A stretch of DNA of 64,000 nt from Artemia franciscana (Eukaryota > Arthropoda > Branchiopoda > Anostraca > Artemiidae), in assembly GCF_032884065.1 (NCBI RefSeq), contig NC_088866.1, forward strand, positions 26,578,335-26,642,334, given 5' to 3'. Below are positions 9,901-53,613 of the stretch, in pieces; position 1 is the first letter of the stretch, and each line of letters opens with the position of its first letter. The position numbers and the translations under genes are program-made. The notes below the pieces were generated by a model, which was given only the letters and a program-made list of their open reading frames with translations, searched no databases and was not told the DNA's origin.

Positions 9901-10016
9901 ATAAAAAAAAAATACACTAAAGCCATATGGTTAACTTAGGTACACTAAAGGCTTAACTTAGGTAGAGCATAGAGCAATCGTAAAATAAGAAATTGAATAC
10001 TGATGAAGACGCTTAC

Positions 10017-10214
10017 CCAAGATATCTGTGACTTTGATCATTTTCTCAATTTCATCTGGACATATATCAGGGCAGTGTGTAAATCCAAAATATATCATTA
10101 GCCACTGACCCAAAAAGTCAGAATTTGTGCGTGGCTTTCCTGTATGATCAATCAAGTCAAAGTCACCACCTATGGCTGCTTTTCCAAGTTGTCGTTTTCT
10201 TTCTCTTTGCAAAG
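10017..10214 (-). CDS. SCO1: SCO1 copper chaperone, exon with the CxxxC copper site
   Basis: The exon is 198 bp between TTTTTCCAG and GTAAGC (minus strand), in phase 1 and out phase 1. It encodes [58 protein letters not shown] and MIKVTDIL. The two cysteines of CPDIC are the copper-binding, redox-active CxxxC pair of SCO1/SCO2, and [10 protein letters not shown] is the family's most conserved stretch. [18 protein letters not shown] corresponds to human GKPLLGGPFSL.THTGE. An ORF that runs on past the donor reads intron and is not coding. Copper is received from COX17 and passed to COX2 in the known pathway; that role is inferred from homology. Confidence 0.96.
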
Positions 10215-10955
10215 CTGGAAAAATTGAAGAAAGTAACATATGAAATCGAGAATTTTGGAAATAGTGTAAATATATGGACGAATAAAAAAAAGAATATGAT
10301 GACAAAGCAACAATAACAAAAAAAACACAAGAGAAGCACCAATAACCAACAAAAAATTGCATTAAATGATTGCGAGGGGATATACACTCACAAGCCATAT
10401 CTGAGAGTTTCCTATGCCGTATCTCTTACTTTGAAGTTATATCGTAATGTCTTAATCACTAACAAGAAACATGGTATCTTTTCCAAGGTCGATGATGAAG
10501 GACCATTGTCATTGTGAAAAGAAGAATTTGAATGTAAGTTTTCTTTAGTTTTTCCTTTTGTTTTTGTATGTGTATTTCTTTTTTTCTTGCTTTGTTCCTA
10601 TTCTCGTCTGTTTTTCTTTTAAGCTAACTTCTTTCACCTTCTTTATTTTCCCAGTGATAAAGGCTTCCATATGTAAAGGTCAAATATTTGAATTTTCGTT
10701 AGTTCAAAAAAAGGTTTTCCTTTTTAGAGAAGTTTCACTCTCTAATTAGAAGTTACTCATTTCTAAACATATTCATTTTATTTTTAAGATGAACAAGAAA
10801 TTTATAAAATTTAAAATAATTTATTTGGATTCTTGTTAAATTACCATTCCTAAGAATATGAAAAAGAATGAAGAAGAAAGGCAAGAATGGTCATTGAAAG
10901 TAAAGTTAAGTTTAGCCTGAGCATGCCTATTATATTTTTTTTCGGTTGCGAAAAT
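10215..10955. other. SCO1 intron sequence, unassigned
   Basis: Start (5-prime side on plus) of the 4.5-kb intron between 10214 and 14675. It is T- and A-rich with short spurious ORFs and no recognised element. Confidence 0.5.
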
Positions 10956-26022: not shown

Positions 26023-26103
26023 ATGGCTAAATCAGCAGTTTCAGCCATGATCGACATTGGGAAAGTTGCGAAGAATCTAATAAAAAAACATCCCACTGGA
26101 GAG
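26023..26103 (+). CDS. PRXL2B: PRXL2B (FAM213B/SelU-type) peroxiredoxin-like protein, first coding exon
   Basis: Begins MAKSAVSAMIDIGKVAKNLI and ends KKHPTGE at a consensus GAG-GTAAGC donor in phase 0. It corresponds to the start of animal PRXL2B (human MSTVDLARVGACILKHAVTG), with IDIGKVAKNLI aligned to VDLARVGACIL and the TGE turn conserved. The next exon continues QVKLGSLW without loss of frame. The upstream ATG is chosen because it has a G at +4 and a purine at -3; the second Met (residue 9) would give a protein starting nearer the family consensus. PRXL2B proteins are thioredoxin-fold reductases of the AhpC/TSA group, described in mammals as prostamide/prostaglandin F synthase, acting in the cytosol. 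Confidence 0.85.
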
Positions 26104-27230: not shown

Positions 27231-29285
27231 ATTCTAGTTAATTGACTTCTTGATATCTTAGAAAGGGTTTAGGTTAGGAAAATGAAACTTTCAGGGATGG
27301 GTCTTCAGGCTAAAGTATGTCCTAAGAAGGTATTTTAAAGTACCTACCTCCACTCCTTGTCCCTCTAGAGGGCCCTGAAATTTGCCTACATGACAAGTCT
27401 ATATACCTATTGAAATTTTTACAAAACAATATTTTACCTGAATTTTCTGTTACTAGTTGCTGTTTCTCTGCATTTAGTTCTGAAAATGTAATTCCTGTTA
27501 TTTGAGTAGAGTTTTGAGCCATATCAATGGTTTTTTATTAAAAAAATTTAGGAAATGTATTTGCATATCTTTAAAACCCTTATAAAAAGGAATTTAGCAA
27601 AGTTATAATACCCTTAAATACCTTAAATTGCAGCTTGGAGCGATATAAGGATTATCCATCCTTGTGATGCTCCATGAGAAAAAAAAAATTCATTTGGTGT
27701 AGATTGTGGCTGTTAGATTAGACTCTTGTGGAGGATTCTGCAGCTTCCCAATTGTAAAGGAACTCCTGGCAGAGCCATTCCCTATCAAGGTGGGACTTGA
27801 ACATGTCAATTGAAGTAGCAGAAACTGTTTCTTCAGTGAGCTGGTTCCACATATTGATGATTCTTTGGCTGAAGAAGTAGCTTCTATGTCTACTCATGGA
27901 ACACTGCATAGAGAGCTTCAAAGAATGTCCTCTAGTACCAGAATGCAAGGGCTGTGCAAAGAGACCAGGAAGGGTATTTTTAGAGACCCTTTTTCCGTTG
28001 GTATGTCACTGTTGGCAGCTTTAAATGATGTAGTCTTTCTTTGTATGGAAATTTATTCATGTTGGTAACCATCTTAGTGGCATGATGCTGGACATCCTCA
28101 AGCAACTTCATATCTTTTTTGATAAAAGGAGCTGCCAATGACATTCCAACCTTCAGGCATGGATGTACAAGCGCCTTATATAACTTCATAAGAACTCTAG
28201 GGTGTTGGCTGGAGATGGTTCTTTTTATGATACAGAGGGTTTTATTTGCAGAAGATGAAACAGACTTAGCATGGCTGCTAAACTTTAATTGGTGATCTAC
28301 AATAACCCCAAGATCTCTTTCATCAGAAACAGCAGAAAGGAAGTTGTCTTGAAGGAAATACTTATGATGCTTGTTATTTTTGCCAAAATGAATTACATGG
28401 CATTTGTCAACATTGAAAGTCAGAAGCCACATGTTAGCCCATCTTTCTAGACTATCAAGATCTGTTTGAATTGATTGCTGGTCAGATGGAGTAGCCGTTT
28501 TTCCAACTAGTTTTGAGTCATCAGTGTAAAGGGTAATAAGATTTGAAAGAAGGGTGGGTAATTTGTTAATATAGAAGTTGAAAAGTGTTGGTCCAAGAAT
28601 AGTGCCCTGGGGCATGCCACTTAATACAGTTGTGGGAGAAGAGAAATGAGGAGTTCCTTGCAAATCAAAAACTCTGACACTCTGTGATCTTTCAGAAAGG
28701 AAGCCCATAATCCACTGTACAACACCTTCATTGACACCTGCAGCCCTCAATTTGATTATGAGGAATTCATGACAAACTTTGTCAAATGCTTTGGACAGAT
28801 CAAGAAGAATCATGTCAACAGGAAAACCCTCATCAAGCAGTGTAGTCACTAATTCATATGTTTGGATAAGGTTAGTGTCCACAGATCTACCAGATCTGAA
28901 ACCATGTTGTGATGTGGAAAGGATATTATTGACCTCAAGATGTTCAATTTGAGCTTTATTAACAAATATCTCAAGCACCTTAACAACTGCAGAGGTGATG
29001 CTTATGGGATGGTAATTCTCTGCTGAGTCTCTTCGTCCCTTAATAATGCTGAAAACAATTTTTTTGTACTTCAATTAAGCAGAAGATCTATTTTGCAAGG
29101 TTTTGCTTTTATAACACACATATTTTTAATGGTCAGGGCCCTCTAGAGGGAGAAGGAGTAGTTAGTTGCTTCAAAATACCTTTGCAGGACATACTTTAAT
29201 CTGTAGATTCATCCCTGAAAGTTTCATTTTCCTAACCTAAACCCTTTCTGAGATAGCAAGAAGTGAATTAACTAGAATTTTACCA
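27226..29285. mobile_element. Element with about 155-bp terminal inverted repeats, inserted in the Penelope-like element
   Basis: The left arm 27228-27385 and right arm 29128-29285 are inverted repeats: AAATTCTAGTTAATTGACTT, GGGTTTAGGTTAGGAAAATG, AAACTTTCAGGGATG, TAAAGTATGTCCT and CCCTCTAGAGGGCCCTG all recur in reverse. TA flanks both outer ends, consistent with a TA target duplication of mariner-like type. The interior is occupied mainly by a CR1-like LINE, so this is probably a non-autonomous TIR element that later received the LINE. No transposase was seen. Confidence 0.75.
27718..29074 (-). mobile_element. CR1/jockey-type LINE, reverse transcriptase ORF
   Basis: A 364-codon minus-strand ORF (27980-29074) contains RT motifs in order: NYHPISITSAVVKVLE, QHGFRSGRSVDTNL, ILLDLSKAFDKVCH (motif A), SGMPQGTILGPTLFNFYIN (motif B), LYTDDSKL (motif C, YTDD instead of YADD), LLTFNVDKCHVIHFG and ERDLGVIVD. 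The C-terminal tail (GTRGHSLKLSMQC, RSYFFSQRIINMWNQLTEE) follows in another frame to 27718, so one frame change near 27.98 kb breaks an otherwise nearly intact RT. The endonuclease half is missing, a 5-prime truncation. This is the best preserved LINE in the window, hence relatively young. It lies antisense within PRXL2B intron 1. Confidence 0.92.
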
Positions 29286-33425: not shown

Positions 33426-34199
33426 ATGTTTAAGTTTACAATGACTGATGAACTTACCATGGCAAAAGCCGATGAAGATGCTCAAAGAGTCTATGCCAAA
33501 AAACTTGCTGCTGATAGAGGAAGTCAGAAAAGAAAGCGTGCCGAGGAATTAAAAGAACAGCAAGGAAACAGGCTTGAGGCTGATAGAGAAAGAAAGAACA
33601 GAAAGCGTGCCGAGGAATCAAAAGAACAGCAAGGAAACAGGCTTGAGGCTGATAGAGAAAGAAAGAACAGAAAGCGTGCCGAGGAATCAAAAGAACAGCA
33701 AGGAAACAGGCTTGAGGCTGATAGAGAAAAAAAGAACAGAAAGCGTGCCGAGGAACTACCAGAGCAACGCGGAAGCAGACTTGCTGCTAAAAGAGAAAGT
33801 GAAAAAAGAAGGCGTGCCGAGGAATTACAAGAACAGCAAGAAATCAGGCTTGCTGCTGATAGAGAAAGTAAGAAAAGAAAGCGTGCCGAGGAATCACAAG
33901 AACAGCAAGAAATCAGGCTTGCTGCTGATAGAGAAAGTAAGAAAAGAAAGCGTGCCGAGGAATCAGAGCAACCTGAAAGTTATCGCCTGGCATTCAGGTA
34001 CAACCCAGTCGATGATTATAGCTTGAGTAGATGTGTTCAAATCGGGACAATGTCTAAAATTTGTCCCTATTGCAAGGCCTTGAAATTCAATGGTGAAACA
34101 ATGGGAATGTGTTGCGCCTCAGGAAAAGTTAAACTTCCTCTATTGGCTGCACCACCAGAGCCATTGAAGACGAATGAATGCTTGCCTGAAAAATTCTAA
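33426..34199 (+). CDS. Helitron N-terminal protein fragment with 23-residue charged repeats
   Basis: A 257-residue ORF. After MFKFTMTDELTMAKADEDAQ come six full copies and one partial copy of a 23-residue unit of the form RKRAEE-EQQ-RL-ADRE-K, which should form a long charged helix or coiled coil. Next is YNPVDDYSLSRCVQIGTM, and then the Helitron-specific CPYCKALKF, GMCCASGKVKLPLL (a C..C...CC..GKV.LP zinc-binding-like motif that precedes the replication-initiator domain in Helitron proteins). The ORF then runs directly into helicase C-terminal sequence and stops, the junction of the internal deletion. The start at 33426 or the second Met at 33441 are both possible. A 69-bp DNA repeat underlies the peptide repeat. 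Confidence 0.8.
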   Translation: MFKFTMTDELTMAKADEDAQRVYAKKLAADRGSQKRKRAEELKEQQGNRLEADRERKNRKRAEESKEQQGNRLEADRERKNRKRAEESKEQQGNRLEADREKKNRKRAEELPEQRGSRLAAKRESEKRRRAEELQEQQEIRLAADRESKKRKRAEESQEQQEIRLAADRESKKRKRAEESEQPESYRLAFRYNPVDDYSLSRCVQIGTMSKICPYCKALKFNGETMGMCCASGKVKLPLLAAPPEPLKTNECLPEKF

Positions 34200-35055
34200 T
34201 TTATGGGCACACGTAAAAATATTAAAATTAACTACAAATATGCGTGTCCGATTGCAAAACGATGACTCTGGTCAAACATTTTCAGATCAATTGCTGACAA
34301 TTGGAAACGGAAAGCTCCCAGTAGACTCAATTTCAGGACGTATACAACTACCTGCTGATTTCTGTAATTTAGTGACGTCCAAAAATGAATTGATTGAAAA
34401 AGTATTTCCGAATATTCTAAAAAATTATAAAAATAATAAATGGCTAAGTGAAAGAGCGATTCTCGCACCCAAAAATATAGACGTCCACGAAATCAACAAT
34501 ATTGTTTTGACCAAGATTCGAGACCAGGCAGTCCTTTACAAGTCAGTCGACACAGTTTTGGAACCAAATGAAGCAGTTAATTATCCATCTGAATTTTTAA
34601 ATTCGATAGATCTTTCAGGGTTTCCACCACACGTGCTACAACTAAAAATAGGCGTACCAATAATACTTTTAAGAAATATCAACCCACCAAAGCTTTGCAA
34701 TGGCACTCGACTTGCCATAAAAAAAACAATGGAAAACCTAATAGAGGCCACAATCTTGACAGGGCCTTTTGAGGGTGAGGCTGTTCTTATTCCTCGCATT
34801 CCCATGATTCCAACGGATCTGCCTTTTCAATTTAAAAGATTGCAATTCCCAATTCGATTAGCATTTGCAATCACCATTAACAAAGCTCAAGGTCAATCAT
34901 TAGAAACATGTGGTATAGATCTTAATACTGATTGTTTTTCCCGTGGACAATTGTACGTTGCATGTTCGAGGGTCGGTAAACCTGACAATCTATTTATATG
35001 TAGCGACAATTGGACAGCGAAGAATGTTGTATATTCGCAAGTTTTACGCAGTTAA
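34174..35055 (+). pseudogene. Helitron Pif1-like helicase, C-terminal part
   Basis: A 293-residue ORF. Recognisable blocks: LTTNMRVRLQN, LPVDSISGRIQLPADFC, WLSERAILAPKNIDVHEINN (the SERAILAP motif of Helitron Pif1 helicases), VGVPIILLRN-type GVPIILLRNINPPKLCNGTR, then FAITINKAQGQSLETCGIDL and RGQLYVACSRVGKPDNLFI (helicase motifs V and VI; the Arg of ACSR is the arginine finger). Motifs I to III (ATP-binding) are missing, so it cannot be an active helicase. It ends NVVYSQVLRS, the normal C terminus. Confidence 0.88.
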
Positions 35056-35238
35056 TTTGTATTGTATCTATCTATCTATCTATCTATCTATATAAAAACG
35101 AGTTGTGTTTATGCATGTTTGTTTGTTTGTAAAAAGAGCGTTTGCATATGATGTCATTATTAGTACATACGGCTTTGTATATGCAGAGAGAATGGGAAAG
35201 CCAAGAATGTTGTATATTCGCAATTTTTACGTAGTTTA
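35056..35238 (+). mobile_element. Helitron 5-prime-like spacer between tandem helicase copies
   Basis: (CTAT)n then ATATAAAAACGAGTTGTG, TGTTTGTTTGTAAAAAGAGC and TATGATGTCATTATTAG. The same module follows the second copy (36101-36272) and stands alone at 57.54 kb. Confidence 0.65.
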
Positions 35239-36100
35239 ACTCCTGCAGACGAAATGAATGCTTGCCTAAAAAATTCCAATTTATGGGCACACGTAAAAAT
35301 ATTAAAATTAACTACAAATATGCGTGTCCGATTGCAAAACGATGACTCTGGTCAAACAGTAGACTCAATTTCAGGACGTATACAACTACCTGCTGATTTC
35401 TGTAATTTAGTGACGTCCAAAAATGAATTGATTGAAAAAGTATTTCCGAATATTCTAAAAAATTATAAAAATAATAAATGGCTAAGTGAAAGAGCGATTC
35501 TCGCACCCAAAAATATAGACGTCCACGAAATCAACAATATTGTTTTGACCAAGATTCGAGACCAGGCAGTCCTTTACAAGTCAGTTGACACAGTTTTGGA
35601 ACCAAATGAAGCGGTTAATTATCCATCTGAATTTTTAAATTCCATAGATCCTTCAGGGTTTCCACCACACGTGCTACAACTAAAAATAGGCGTACCAATA
35701 ATACTTTTAAGAAATATCAACCCACCAAAGCTTTGCAATGGCACGCGACTTGCCGTAAAAAAAAACAATGGAAAACCTAATAGAGGCCACAATCTTGACA
35801 GGGCCTTATGAGGGTGAGGCTGTTCTTATTCCTCGCATTCCCATGATTCCAACGTTTCTGCTTTTTCAATTTAAAAGATTGCAATTTCCAATTCGATTAG
35901 TATTTGCAATCACCATTAACAAAGCTCAAGGTCAATCATTAGAAAAATGTGGTATAGATCTTAATACTGACTGTTTTTCCCATGGACAATTTTACGTTGC
36001 ATGTTCGAGGGTCGGTAAACCTGACAATGTATTTATATGCGGCGACAATTGGACAGCGAAGAATGTTGTATATTCGCAAGTTTTACGCAGTTAATTTGTA
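35239..36100 (+). pseudogene. Tandem second copy of the Helitron helicase C-terminal part
   Basis: Nearly identical to 34159-35065 but lacking about 42 bp of the first copy (the stretch encoding FSDQLLTIGNGKLP) and with one extra A near 35766 that shifts the frame, leaving two ORFs (35254-35811 and 35768-36094). Ends in the same NVVYSQVLRS. High identity suggests a recent duplication. Confidence 0.88.
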
Positions 36101-37684: not shown

Positions 37685-38740
37685 AATGAATGAATGAATC
37701 GATAAATGAACTTTATTATCCGTAAAAGTTATAAAAAAAACACAGAGTACGGAGTATTATAAATAAACAAAAACAAAAACGATAAACAAAAAAAAATTCA
37801 AACTAACAAAAGACAACATGGACTAACCAGTATCAATATGGGAAAAAGGCTGCAGAGGGTCGTAAAAGTGAATAAAGTAGATAGTCTTTTTACATAAATC
37901 ATCAATGGAAGACCGAATCCAAGAAGACATATCTATTAAATCAAATCGAGCAATTATTTTTCTGTTTTGGTGCCATCTAGGAAGCTGGATTAGGATTTTG
38001 CAATATCTGAAATAAGCCGCACGCAGAATATTGGGATTTTTCTTACGAAAAAGATGAGCCATGCCTGATAAAAACAAAACTACAGGGGCGCAATGAGCGT
38101 TATAAATCATGCACAAACCTTTGCCTTTGTAACGGCTTTTGTTTGGGGATATTTTTCCGTAAGTGACGAGTAGGTTTTTCACGGCTTGATTCACTGGGGA
38201 TGAAAAGGGAGTGGAAAGTGTTGGACCGAAACACAGACAAAGCCAACTAACTAAAGAAGAACATGTCAGAATTGCAGTCCCAGCAACGAATGGAGCGACA
38301 GCATAAGGGCTGTTGAAACAAATAAACTCGAATTTAGACGCATTAACTGACAGTCCAATTAGATAGCTCATTGATTAATATAGTAAAATTGGAAAGCAAT
38401 CCACGGCGAGTCCGGGCAACAATAAGAAGGTCGTCTGCATATGCAACAGAAGACAAACCAATATTACCGTAAGAAAAAGAACTCTTAAGGGGACGCAGGC
38501 ACGATGCAAGCACACATTTAAATATACTAGAAGACAATACGGCAGAAGTTGCAACGTATCTATTTCTAGCAGTAGTTTTCACACCATGAAGTTTCAAAAA
38601 CCATGAGACTAAGTTGAAAATCTTCTGTGAAAGAAGGAATAGAACAAGAGCTAAGAGCTCATATGGCACTTGTGACGAGGTCGTAAGAGCCAAGAGCTCA
38701 TATGACATGAGCTCTAGCAAAATTGTAAGAATCAATACAT
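37685..38740 (-). mobile_element. Degenerate LINE (reverse transcriptase to 3-prime end)
   Basis: Minus-strand frames contain SSVAYADDLLIVARTRRG (motif C, YADD intact), then FTILINELSNWTVSVNASKF across a frame change near 38.35 kb, FICFNSPY, CMIYNAHCAPVVLF and ILIQLPRWHQNRKI. The 3-prime end is marked by TTCATTCATTCATTC at about 37690, a short tandem-repeat tail. 5-prime truncated. A separate family from those at 3.9 and 27.7 kb. Confidence 0.8.
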
Positions 38741-42289: not shown

Positions 42290-42497
42290 CAAGTCAAACT
42301 TGGATCATTATGGGAAGAAAAGACTACAGTGGTCATTTTTTTGAGGAGATTTGGATGACCTTTCTGCCGGTTGGCGGCGCGAGAGATTTCCTCAGTTGCG
42401 CCCCAACTGCAGGCAGCAAATGTACGGCTTGCAGCTGTTGGTCTTGAAGATCTTGGTATTGAAGAATTTGCCAATGGGAAATTTTTCAGTGGTGATG
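42290..42497 (+). CDS. PRXL2B: PRXL2B peroxiredoxin-like protein, exon with UGA (probable selenocysteine) in the active site
   Basis: The exon is 208 bp, with acceptor TTTTTTTCAG and donor GTATGT, in phase 0 and out phase 1. It encodes QVKLGSLWEEKTTVVIFLRR, then FG-U-PFCRLAAREISSVAPQ, LQAANVRLAAVGLEDLG, IEEFANGKFFSGD. The family has LRRFGC..CR.....S; here the first Cys codon is TGA at 42356-42358, giving UxxC. All flanking residues (RRFG, CR, LAAVG.EDLG, EF, FF.G) are conserved, the frame stays open on both sides, and both splice sites are good. Known biology: fish and other animals encode SelU-group proteins (PRXL2A, B, C) with Sec at exactly this place, while mammals use Cys. A SECIS element must then exist in the 3-prime UTR, which lies outside the window. 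A stop mutation in a decaying copy is the alternative. Confidence 0.9.
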
Positions 42498-48360: not shown

Positions 48361-49025
48361 TGTAGTTTTTACCTTCTTTTTAGTTTTGTTAATTTTTTTT
48401 TTTACTTATGTCCTGGTCGTCATTTATACTCCCTGTGTCCCGGTGCTTTGTTGATTGCTAATCGAACATTCCTTTTGTCCTGGTCGCTTTCTCTTTGAGT
48501 GTCGTCATTTAGTTTTTTAGCTTTTTTACTTTTTTTATTAGTTTTTAGTTTTTTTGTAGTTTTTGCCTTTTTTTAGTTTTTTCAGTTTTTTTTTTAGTTT
48601 TTTATTGGTTTTTACCTTTATTTTAGCTTATTTTTCAGTTTTTTCCTTTTTTTTAGTTTTTTTTAGTTTTTAGTTTTTTTAGTTTTTTACCTTTTTTTAG
48701 TTTTTTTAGTTTTTTTAGTTTTTTAGCTTTTTTATTTTTTTTTATTAGTTTTCAGTTTTTTTTTGTAGTTTTTGCCTTTTTTTTAGTTTTTTTAGTTTTT
48801 TAGCTTTTTTATTAGTTTTTAGTTTTTTTTGTAGTTTTTGCCTTTTTTTAGTTTTTTTAGTTTTTTAGCTTTTTTATTTTTTTTATTAGTTTTTAGTTTT
48901 TTTTGTAGTTTTTGCCTTTTTTTAGTTTTTTCAGTTTTGACGTCACCTGATCCAGTTTTTTCAGGTGACGTCACCTGATCCACGATCCACAGATCCACAG
49001 ACAACTTATTTTTATATATATAGAT

Positions 49026-49880
49026 AGTTTTTTTTTTTTACTTATGTCCTGGTCGTCATTTATACTCCCTGTGTCCCGGTGCTTTGTTGATTGCTAATCG
49101 AACATTCCTTTTGTCCTGGTCCCTTTCTCTTTGAGTTTCGTCATTTATTTTTTTCTTTTTTAGTTCTTTTAGTTTTTACCTTTTTTAGTTTTTTTTAGTT
49201 TTTTAGATGAAAATTTTTTTTAGTTTTTTCCTTTTTTTCTTTTTAGTTTTTTATTGGTTTTTACCTTTATTTTAGCTTATTTTTCAGTTTTTTCCTTTTT
49301 TTTAGTTTTTTTTTATTTTTTATTTTTTTTAGTTTTTTACCTTTTTTTAGTTTTTTTAGTTTTTTTAGTTTTTTAGCTTTTTTACTTTTTTTATTAGTTT
49401 TTAGTTTTTTTTTGTAGTTTTTGCCTTTTTTTAGTTTTTTCAGTTTTTTTTTTAGTTTTTTATTGGTTTTTACCTTTATTTTAGCTTATTTTTCAGTTTT
49501 TTCCTTTTTTTTTAGTTTTTTTTTAGTTTTTAGTTTTTTTAGTTTTTTACCTTTTTTTAGTTTTTTTAGTTTTTTTAGTTTTTTAGCTTTTTTATTTTTT
49601 TTATTAGTTTTTAGTTTTTTTTGTAGTTTTTGCCTTTTTTTAGTTTTTTTAGTTTTTTAGCTTTTTTATTAGTTTTTAGTTTTTTTTGTAGTTTTTGCCT
49701 TTTTTTAGTTTTTTTAGTTTTTTAGCTTTTTTATTTTTTTTATTAGTTTTTAGTTTTTTTTTGTAGTTTTTGCCTTTTTTAGTTTTTTCAGTTTTGACGT
49801 CACCTGATCCAGTTTTTTCAGGTGACGTCACCTGATCCATCCACAGACAGACAGACAACTTATTTTTATATATATAGATT
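49026..49880 (-). mobile_element. Second Helitron 5-prime segment in tandem
   Basis: Repeats the arrangement of 48.37-49.02 kb: ACTTATGTCCTGGTCGTCAT, CTTTGTTGATTGCTAATCGA, a long TTTTTAGTTTTT minisatellite, TGACGTCACCTGATCC, CAGACAACTTATTTTTATAT. It ends at the 5-prime TC near 49879. The first 581 bp of the window is a third example. Confidence 0.8.
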
Positions 49881-53497: not shown

Positions 53498-53613
53498 AGC
53501 TATATGTTGTTAGCGACAAGAAAACTTATGCTGATCTTGGATTTCAAAAATTTGGTTATTTGAGCATGATTACAGCATTGTTTGCGAAAGTTGCTCGTGA
53601 TGCTATGTCTAAG
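53498..53613 (+). CDS. PRXL2B: PRXL2B peroxiredoxin-like protein, third exon
   Basis: The exon is 116 bp, with acceptor TTTTTCAG and donor AAG-GTAAGT, in phase 1 and out phase 0. It encodes ELYVVSDKKTYADLGFQKFG, then YLSMITALFAKVARDAMSK. It matches the family block ELY.DE.K..YK.LGFKR...LS..PA.LGK..R. that follows the active-site segment (human [20 protein letters not shown]). The G completing the first codon comes from the exon ending at 42497. About 60 further residues (GNL.GD..Q.GG...V..GG) are expected; no matching exon was found between 53.6 and 64 kb, so the gene probably runs past the window. Confidence 0.88.

Follow-up and report, generated by a model that had tools for sequence, protein, structure and literature searches.

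The brine shrimp Artemia franciscana very probably carries a working selenoprotein gene of the SelU3/PRXL2B kind, in which UGA codon 50 is decoded as selenocysteine (Sec) by way of a putative SECIS element. The DNA that was analysed, called the window here, is a stretch of 64,000 nucleotides (C4:26578335-26642334 of the assembly), and the in-frame TGA lies on its forward strand at 42356..42358, inside the motif RRFG-TGA-PFCR. An earlier interpretation made without database searches, referred to below as the sequence-only reading, had taken this codon as the mark of a UxxC selenoenzyme rather than of a broken gene. That reading is now supported by a SECIS candidate, by the presence of tRNA-Sec and eEFSec in the genome, and by an intact frame across five exons.

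Structure and family of the gene

The PRXL2B gene is complete, with five exons that encode 217 residues and end in TAA; exons 4 and 5 lie just beyond the window. Exon 1 (26023..26103, forward strand) begins with the ATG start, encodes MAKSAVSAMIDIGKVAKNLIKKHPTGE, and ends in a phase 0 donor. Exon 2 (42290..42497, forward strand) encodes the active-site motif RRFG-U-PFC and ends in a phase 1 donor; both of its splice sites, the acceptor tttttttcag and the donor gtatgt, are good, and the TGA is the single stop in its frame. Exon 3 (53498..53613, forward strand) encodes (E)LYVVSDKKTYADLGFQKFGYLSMITALFAKVARDAMSK and has a phase 0 donor. The last two exons were sought in the 80 kb downstream of the window, within a genome of 1,270,528,402 bases in 6468 contigs. 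In continued window numbering, exon 4 is located at 71016-71162 (L001:7016-7162) and exon 5, with the TAA, at 74292-74393 (L002:292-393). Joined together, the exons give 654 nt of coding sequence, which holds no stop apart from the TGA at codon 50 and the terminal TAA. The exon open on either side of one TGA, the joining in phase of the exons at 26023 and 53498, and a last exon past 64 kb, all proposed or anticipated from the letters of the window, were recovered in the complete gene.

For the comparisons with protein families, the TGA was translated as Cys. The top match in the PDB is prostamide/PGF synthase (9us9, E=1.7e-45, residues 9-189), a value that excludes chance homology. In this alignment RRFG-U-PFC stands against RRFGCVVC, so that the TGA falls on the first Cys of CxxC, as the sequence-only reading had placed it, and the second Cys is kept. 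The two motifs differ in their middle residues (CVVC in 9us9 and U-P-F-C in the brine shrimp), the brine shrimp protein has a longer C-terminal tail than the solved structure, and the next PDB match, 9usa, has Ser at both motif positions. The Pfam family PF13911 (AhpC-TSA_2) is matched over residues 60-170 with 78.6 bits, where the cut-off is 27. The single NCBIfam match, to a SelL-related redox protein, reaches 75.5 bits and stays under the cut-off of 120.

Within the family, BLAST against the human proteins gave 158 bits for PRXL2B, 58 for PRXL2A and 46 for PRXL2C, with unverified sequences for the latter two. Identity to human PRXL2B is 45.6% over 180 residues. On the basis of the PDB top match and these BLAST scores, and by scores rather than by a tree, the brine shrimp protein is assigned to the PRXL2B/SelU3 branch.

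Several other features were observed in the window and elsewhere. A frame on the reverse strand at 9958-10398 has a SCO1/SenC domain (PF02630, 70.9 bits) and is probably a SCO1 exon on the other strand. A Pif1-type helicase frame (PF21530, PF05970) lies at 33426-35811 on the forward strand with a partly repeated copy behind it, and a coding tandem repeat array with a 69-bp unit precedes these frames; together, the helicase frames and the repeat array in intron 1 look like the remnant of a Helitron. Two reverse transcriptase frames lie on the reverse strand, one at 27980-29074 above the Pfam cut-off and one at 38343-38735 just below it. Long T-rich arrays of TTTTTTAG-like units occupy 140-490 and 48508-49795, and AT skew is strong from 48 to 52 kb. 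Rfam gave no match over the whole 64-kb window. In another part of the assembly, C83:234678-235193, there are four adjacent matches to LEA_5 (group 1 LEA). The control for this family also matches Bacillus subtilis, and bacterial contamination of the contig is a possible source; animal group 1 LEA proteins are known from Artemia, and the matches served as one hint at this genus.

SECIS candidate and Sec machinery

A SECIS-like hairpin, obtained from our own scan and folding, is located past the window, 707 nt downstream of the stop codon; its core is at 75100 in continued numbering (L002:1100). The 5' arm reads ATGA-TACTGAAGCGAT-AA, and after the AA there is a small ATTC-GAAA-GAAT stem. A small stem in this place is a feature of form-2 SECIS elements, and the candidate is presumably of that form. 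An AATAAA signal follows at 75228, but earlier AATAAA signals also occur at 74490 and 74514.

The candidate was spotted by eye before the scan, and the scan was run without a positive control. Its pattern, from the SECIS consensus, consisted of NTGA, 8-14 nt, AA or CC, a 3' GA, and a helix II with 7 or more pairs. When the ATGA/AA form was scanned in 25 loci of 10 kb on both strands (500 kb of strand, with the 64-kb window itself outside the set), the candidate ranked first of 44 matches. It scored -10.0 kcal/mol and was the sole match at -10, ahead of three at -9.9, -9.4 and -9.0, and 4 of the 44 reached -8. The lead over the runner-up at -9.9, which lies in an unrelated place, is narrow.

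Unconstrained folding of 107 nt, with bounds picked after the 121-nt fold had been seen, produced a single extended hairpin (-28.7 kcal/mol, z -2.40), and 3 of 200 shuffles were as stable or more so. Across the four stretches that were folded, a SECIS-like helix II appeared in those of 121 and 53 nt and was incomplete in those of 68 and 85 nt. The SECIS search that the sequence-only reading had called for therefore has a divided outcome: our scan and folds give a candidate, but Rfam returned no SECIS match up to E=10.

Part of the Sec machinery was found in the genome, in agreement with what a selenoprotein gene would require. The search with RF01852 gave 8 matches, 5 of them above the cut-off. 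Since the same model matched in all 14 control genomes (above the cut-off in 5), the weight rests on high score and anticodon. Two genes stand out in this respect, at L009:1500-1586 and L010:1500-1586, with 83.3 and 80.6 bits, and ARAGORN identifies both as tRNA-Sec, anticodon tca. The other six matches range from 42.9 to 47.3 bits, and the two of these that were run in ARAGORN are tRNA-Ser. The flanks of the two tRNA-Sec copies are unlike; within the gene, their alignment appears to show two differences, a compensatory pair of the variable arm and one more base. Additionally, eEFSec (PF21131) is present with 112.9 bits and was matched in none of the 14 control genomes, and SepSecS (PF05889) is present with 412.8 bits and was matched in 3 of the 14. 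Among 24 matches to GPx, 3 hold one TGA each, possibly at the Sec position.

In the mechanism proposed, the ribosome would read UGA at residue 50 as Sec, directed by the hairpin in the putative 3' UTR together with tRNA-Sec and eEFSec. The product would have a peroxiredoxin-like thioredoxin fold with the catalytic motif U-P-F-C. Its Sec would attack a peroxide or endoperoxide, and the selenenyl intermediate would then be resolved by the conserved second Cys. Sec insertion, catalysis and substrate, including the reduction of prostamide H2 / PGH2 that is characteristic of the branch, are thus all predicted features of the brine shrimp protein.

Further copies and competing explanations

When the whole genome was searched with the protein, 8 matches were obtained. 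Five are the exons of the window gene on C4, one is a copy of exon 2 on contig C19, and two are exons on C16. Three of these matches, one on each contig, cover the motif, and the TGA is found in all three. A further Pfam match at C7:28457812 has 25 bits and is under the cut-off.

The copy of exon 2 at C19:23493259-23493489 is identical to the window over 208 nt, including the TGA. Its flanks are 86% identical to those in the window over 125 nt upstream and 92% over 118 nt downstream. None of the other four exons (1, 3, 4 and 5) turned up in 80 kb of surrounding sequence. The copy was read at first as a partial segmental duplication. However, it sits on a roughly 17-kb segment flanked by assembly gaps, and one of these gaps is exactly where its resemblance to the window ends. 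This makes the first reading less likely and suggests an alternative haplotype that was misplaced, or a duplicate contig. At the divergence of the flanks, 50 synonymous sites would all stay unchanged with a probability of about 0.001-0.02, so that selection at the protein level is by itself no full explanation for the identical exon. Polishing may have copied one sequence onto the other, or gene conversion may have done so.

A second gene of the PRXL2B branch is found on C16, with three exons in intact frames (C16:7885722-7885926, 7898648-7898763 and 7908314-7908463), and across these exons its intron phases are those of the window gene. The encoded protein is 32.7% identical to the window protein and 35.8% to human PRXL2B. 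In its motif, RRLG-TGA-SFNR, the TGA occupies the catalytic position, and Asn replaces the expected resolving Cys (UxxN). Neither a terminal exon nor an ATGA-core SECIS match was found in the 31.5 kb downstream. The best candidate there has a TTGA core and scores -11.9 kcal/mol; about 0.6 such matches are expected by chance, and it is therefore not counted as evidence. We tentatively suggest that C16:7885722-7908463 might be an old second selenoprotein of the PRXL2B branch, with the motif U-S-F-N, acting as a one-selenol enzyme that is resolved by another thiol, such as glutathione. This putative UxxN selenoprotein is a more unusual lead than the window gene.

Three other accounts of the TGA in the window gene have to be weighed against Sec. 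Stop-codon readthrough has been described in insects, and UGA could in principle be read as some other amino acid with no selenium involved. Ordinary readthrough would give no account of a UGA placed exactly at the catalytic Cys, in a family known to use Sec there (PMC3473315, accessible part), nor of a SECIS-like hairpin belonging to the gene, and it is considered extremely unlikely. The TGA is also one base away from TGT and TGC, as would be expected if a former Cys gene had suffered a nonsense mutation and had become a pseudogene or the source of a truncated protein. Yet all five exons, their splice sites and the frame are intact and show no further defect. Exon 2 is identical in two assembly copies despite their differing flanks, the three protein matches that cover the motif all have the TGA, and both the hairpin and the Sec machinery are present, all of which leaves a nonsense mutation very unlikely.

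The same single base could have arisen as an assembly or sequencing error for TGT or TGC. Short reads and Pilon were used to polish the draft assembly (PMC11492255, accessible part), a procedure able to copy one sequence onto another, and the agreement between the copies could in part reflect this. The C19 stretch with the same TGA, however, lies between assembly gaps and has flanks that differ by 8-14%, and an error would make a coincidence of the SECIS candidate and the Sec machinery; the probability of such an error is judged to be negligible. Decoding of the UGA as Sec remains the preferred explanation.

Place among known SelU proteins

Sec-containing SelU proteins have been described in two branches of the PRXL2 family. 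Sec forms of SelU1/PRXL2A occur in fish and birds (PMC3316567 and PMC3473315, as far as accessible), and in the accessible part of Mariotti et al. 2012 (PMC3316567) all vertebrate Sec-SelU proteins are SelU1; an early change from Sec to Cys in SelU2 and SelU3 stands there without evidence. SelU1 is a different paralogue from the brine shrimp protein, which has 28% identity to human PRXL2A against 46% to PRXL2B. The branch to which the brine shrimp gene belongs is covered by Jiang et al. 2012 (PMC3473315), the accessible part of which lists 8 SelU3 proteins in 7 species. Three of them, from sea urchin, amphioxus and sea squirt, are Cys forms and the rest are Sec forms. Sponge copies are named, SelU3 is equated with prostamide/PGF synthase, and Sec-SelU3 is found in invertebrates outside deuterostomes; none of the six species studied there is an arthropod. 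As reported in the same part of that paper, genes with an in-frame TGA tend to be mispredicted by ordinary annotation programs.

Large selenoproteomes have likewise been reported from arthropods other than insects. In the accessible parts of these sources, 20 selenoproteins are predicted for Strigamia (PMC4244043), and the counts are 16 for Daphnia pulex and 17 for Lepeophtheirus salmonis, both of which also have two tRNA-Sec candidates (PMC5330540). The accessible part of PMC2500217 finds no selenoprotein loss outside Endopterygota and does not mention SelU. No report of an arthropod Sec-PRXL2B was found in the part of the literature that was searched, and such a case may well already be in print.

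The sequence-only reading had supposed the host to be probably an arthropod, and this was correct: it is Artemia franciscana, whose genome holds 97 matches to Chitin_bind_4 and which is used in aquaculture and toxicity tests (PMC11492255, accessible part). The same reading had presented a Sec form of PRXL2B in an invertebrate as bearing on how often Sec was kept or replaced. A crustacean Sec-PRXL2B does add a data point to that question; the novelty of the finding is reduced by the publication of invertebrate Sec-SelU3 in 2012 and of the non-insect arthropod selenoproteomes cited above. The brine shrimp gene thus adds a good case to a kind of invertebrate selenoprotein that was known before. 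As a data point from the ecdysozoans, a Sec-PRXL2B in a crustacean would fit the existence of a Sec form in the bilaterian ancestor.
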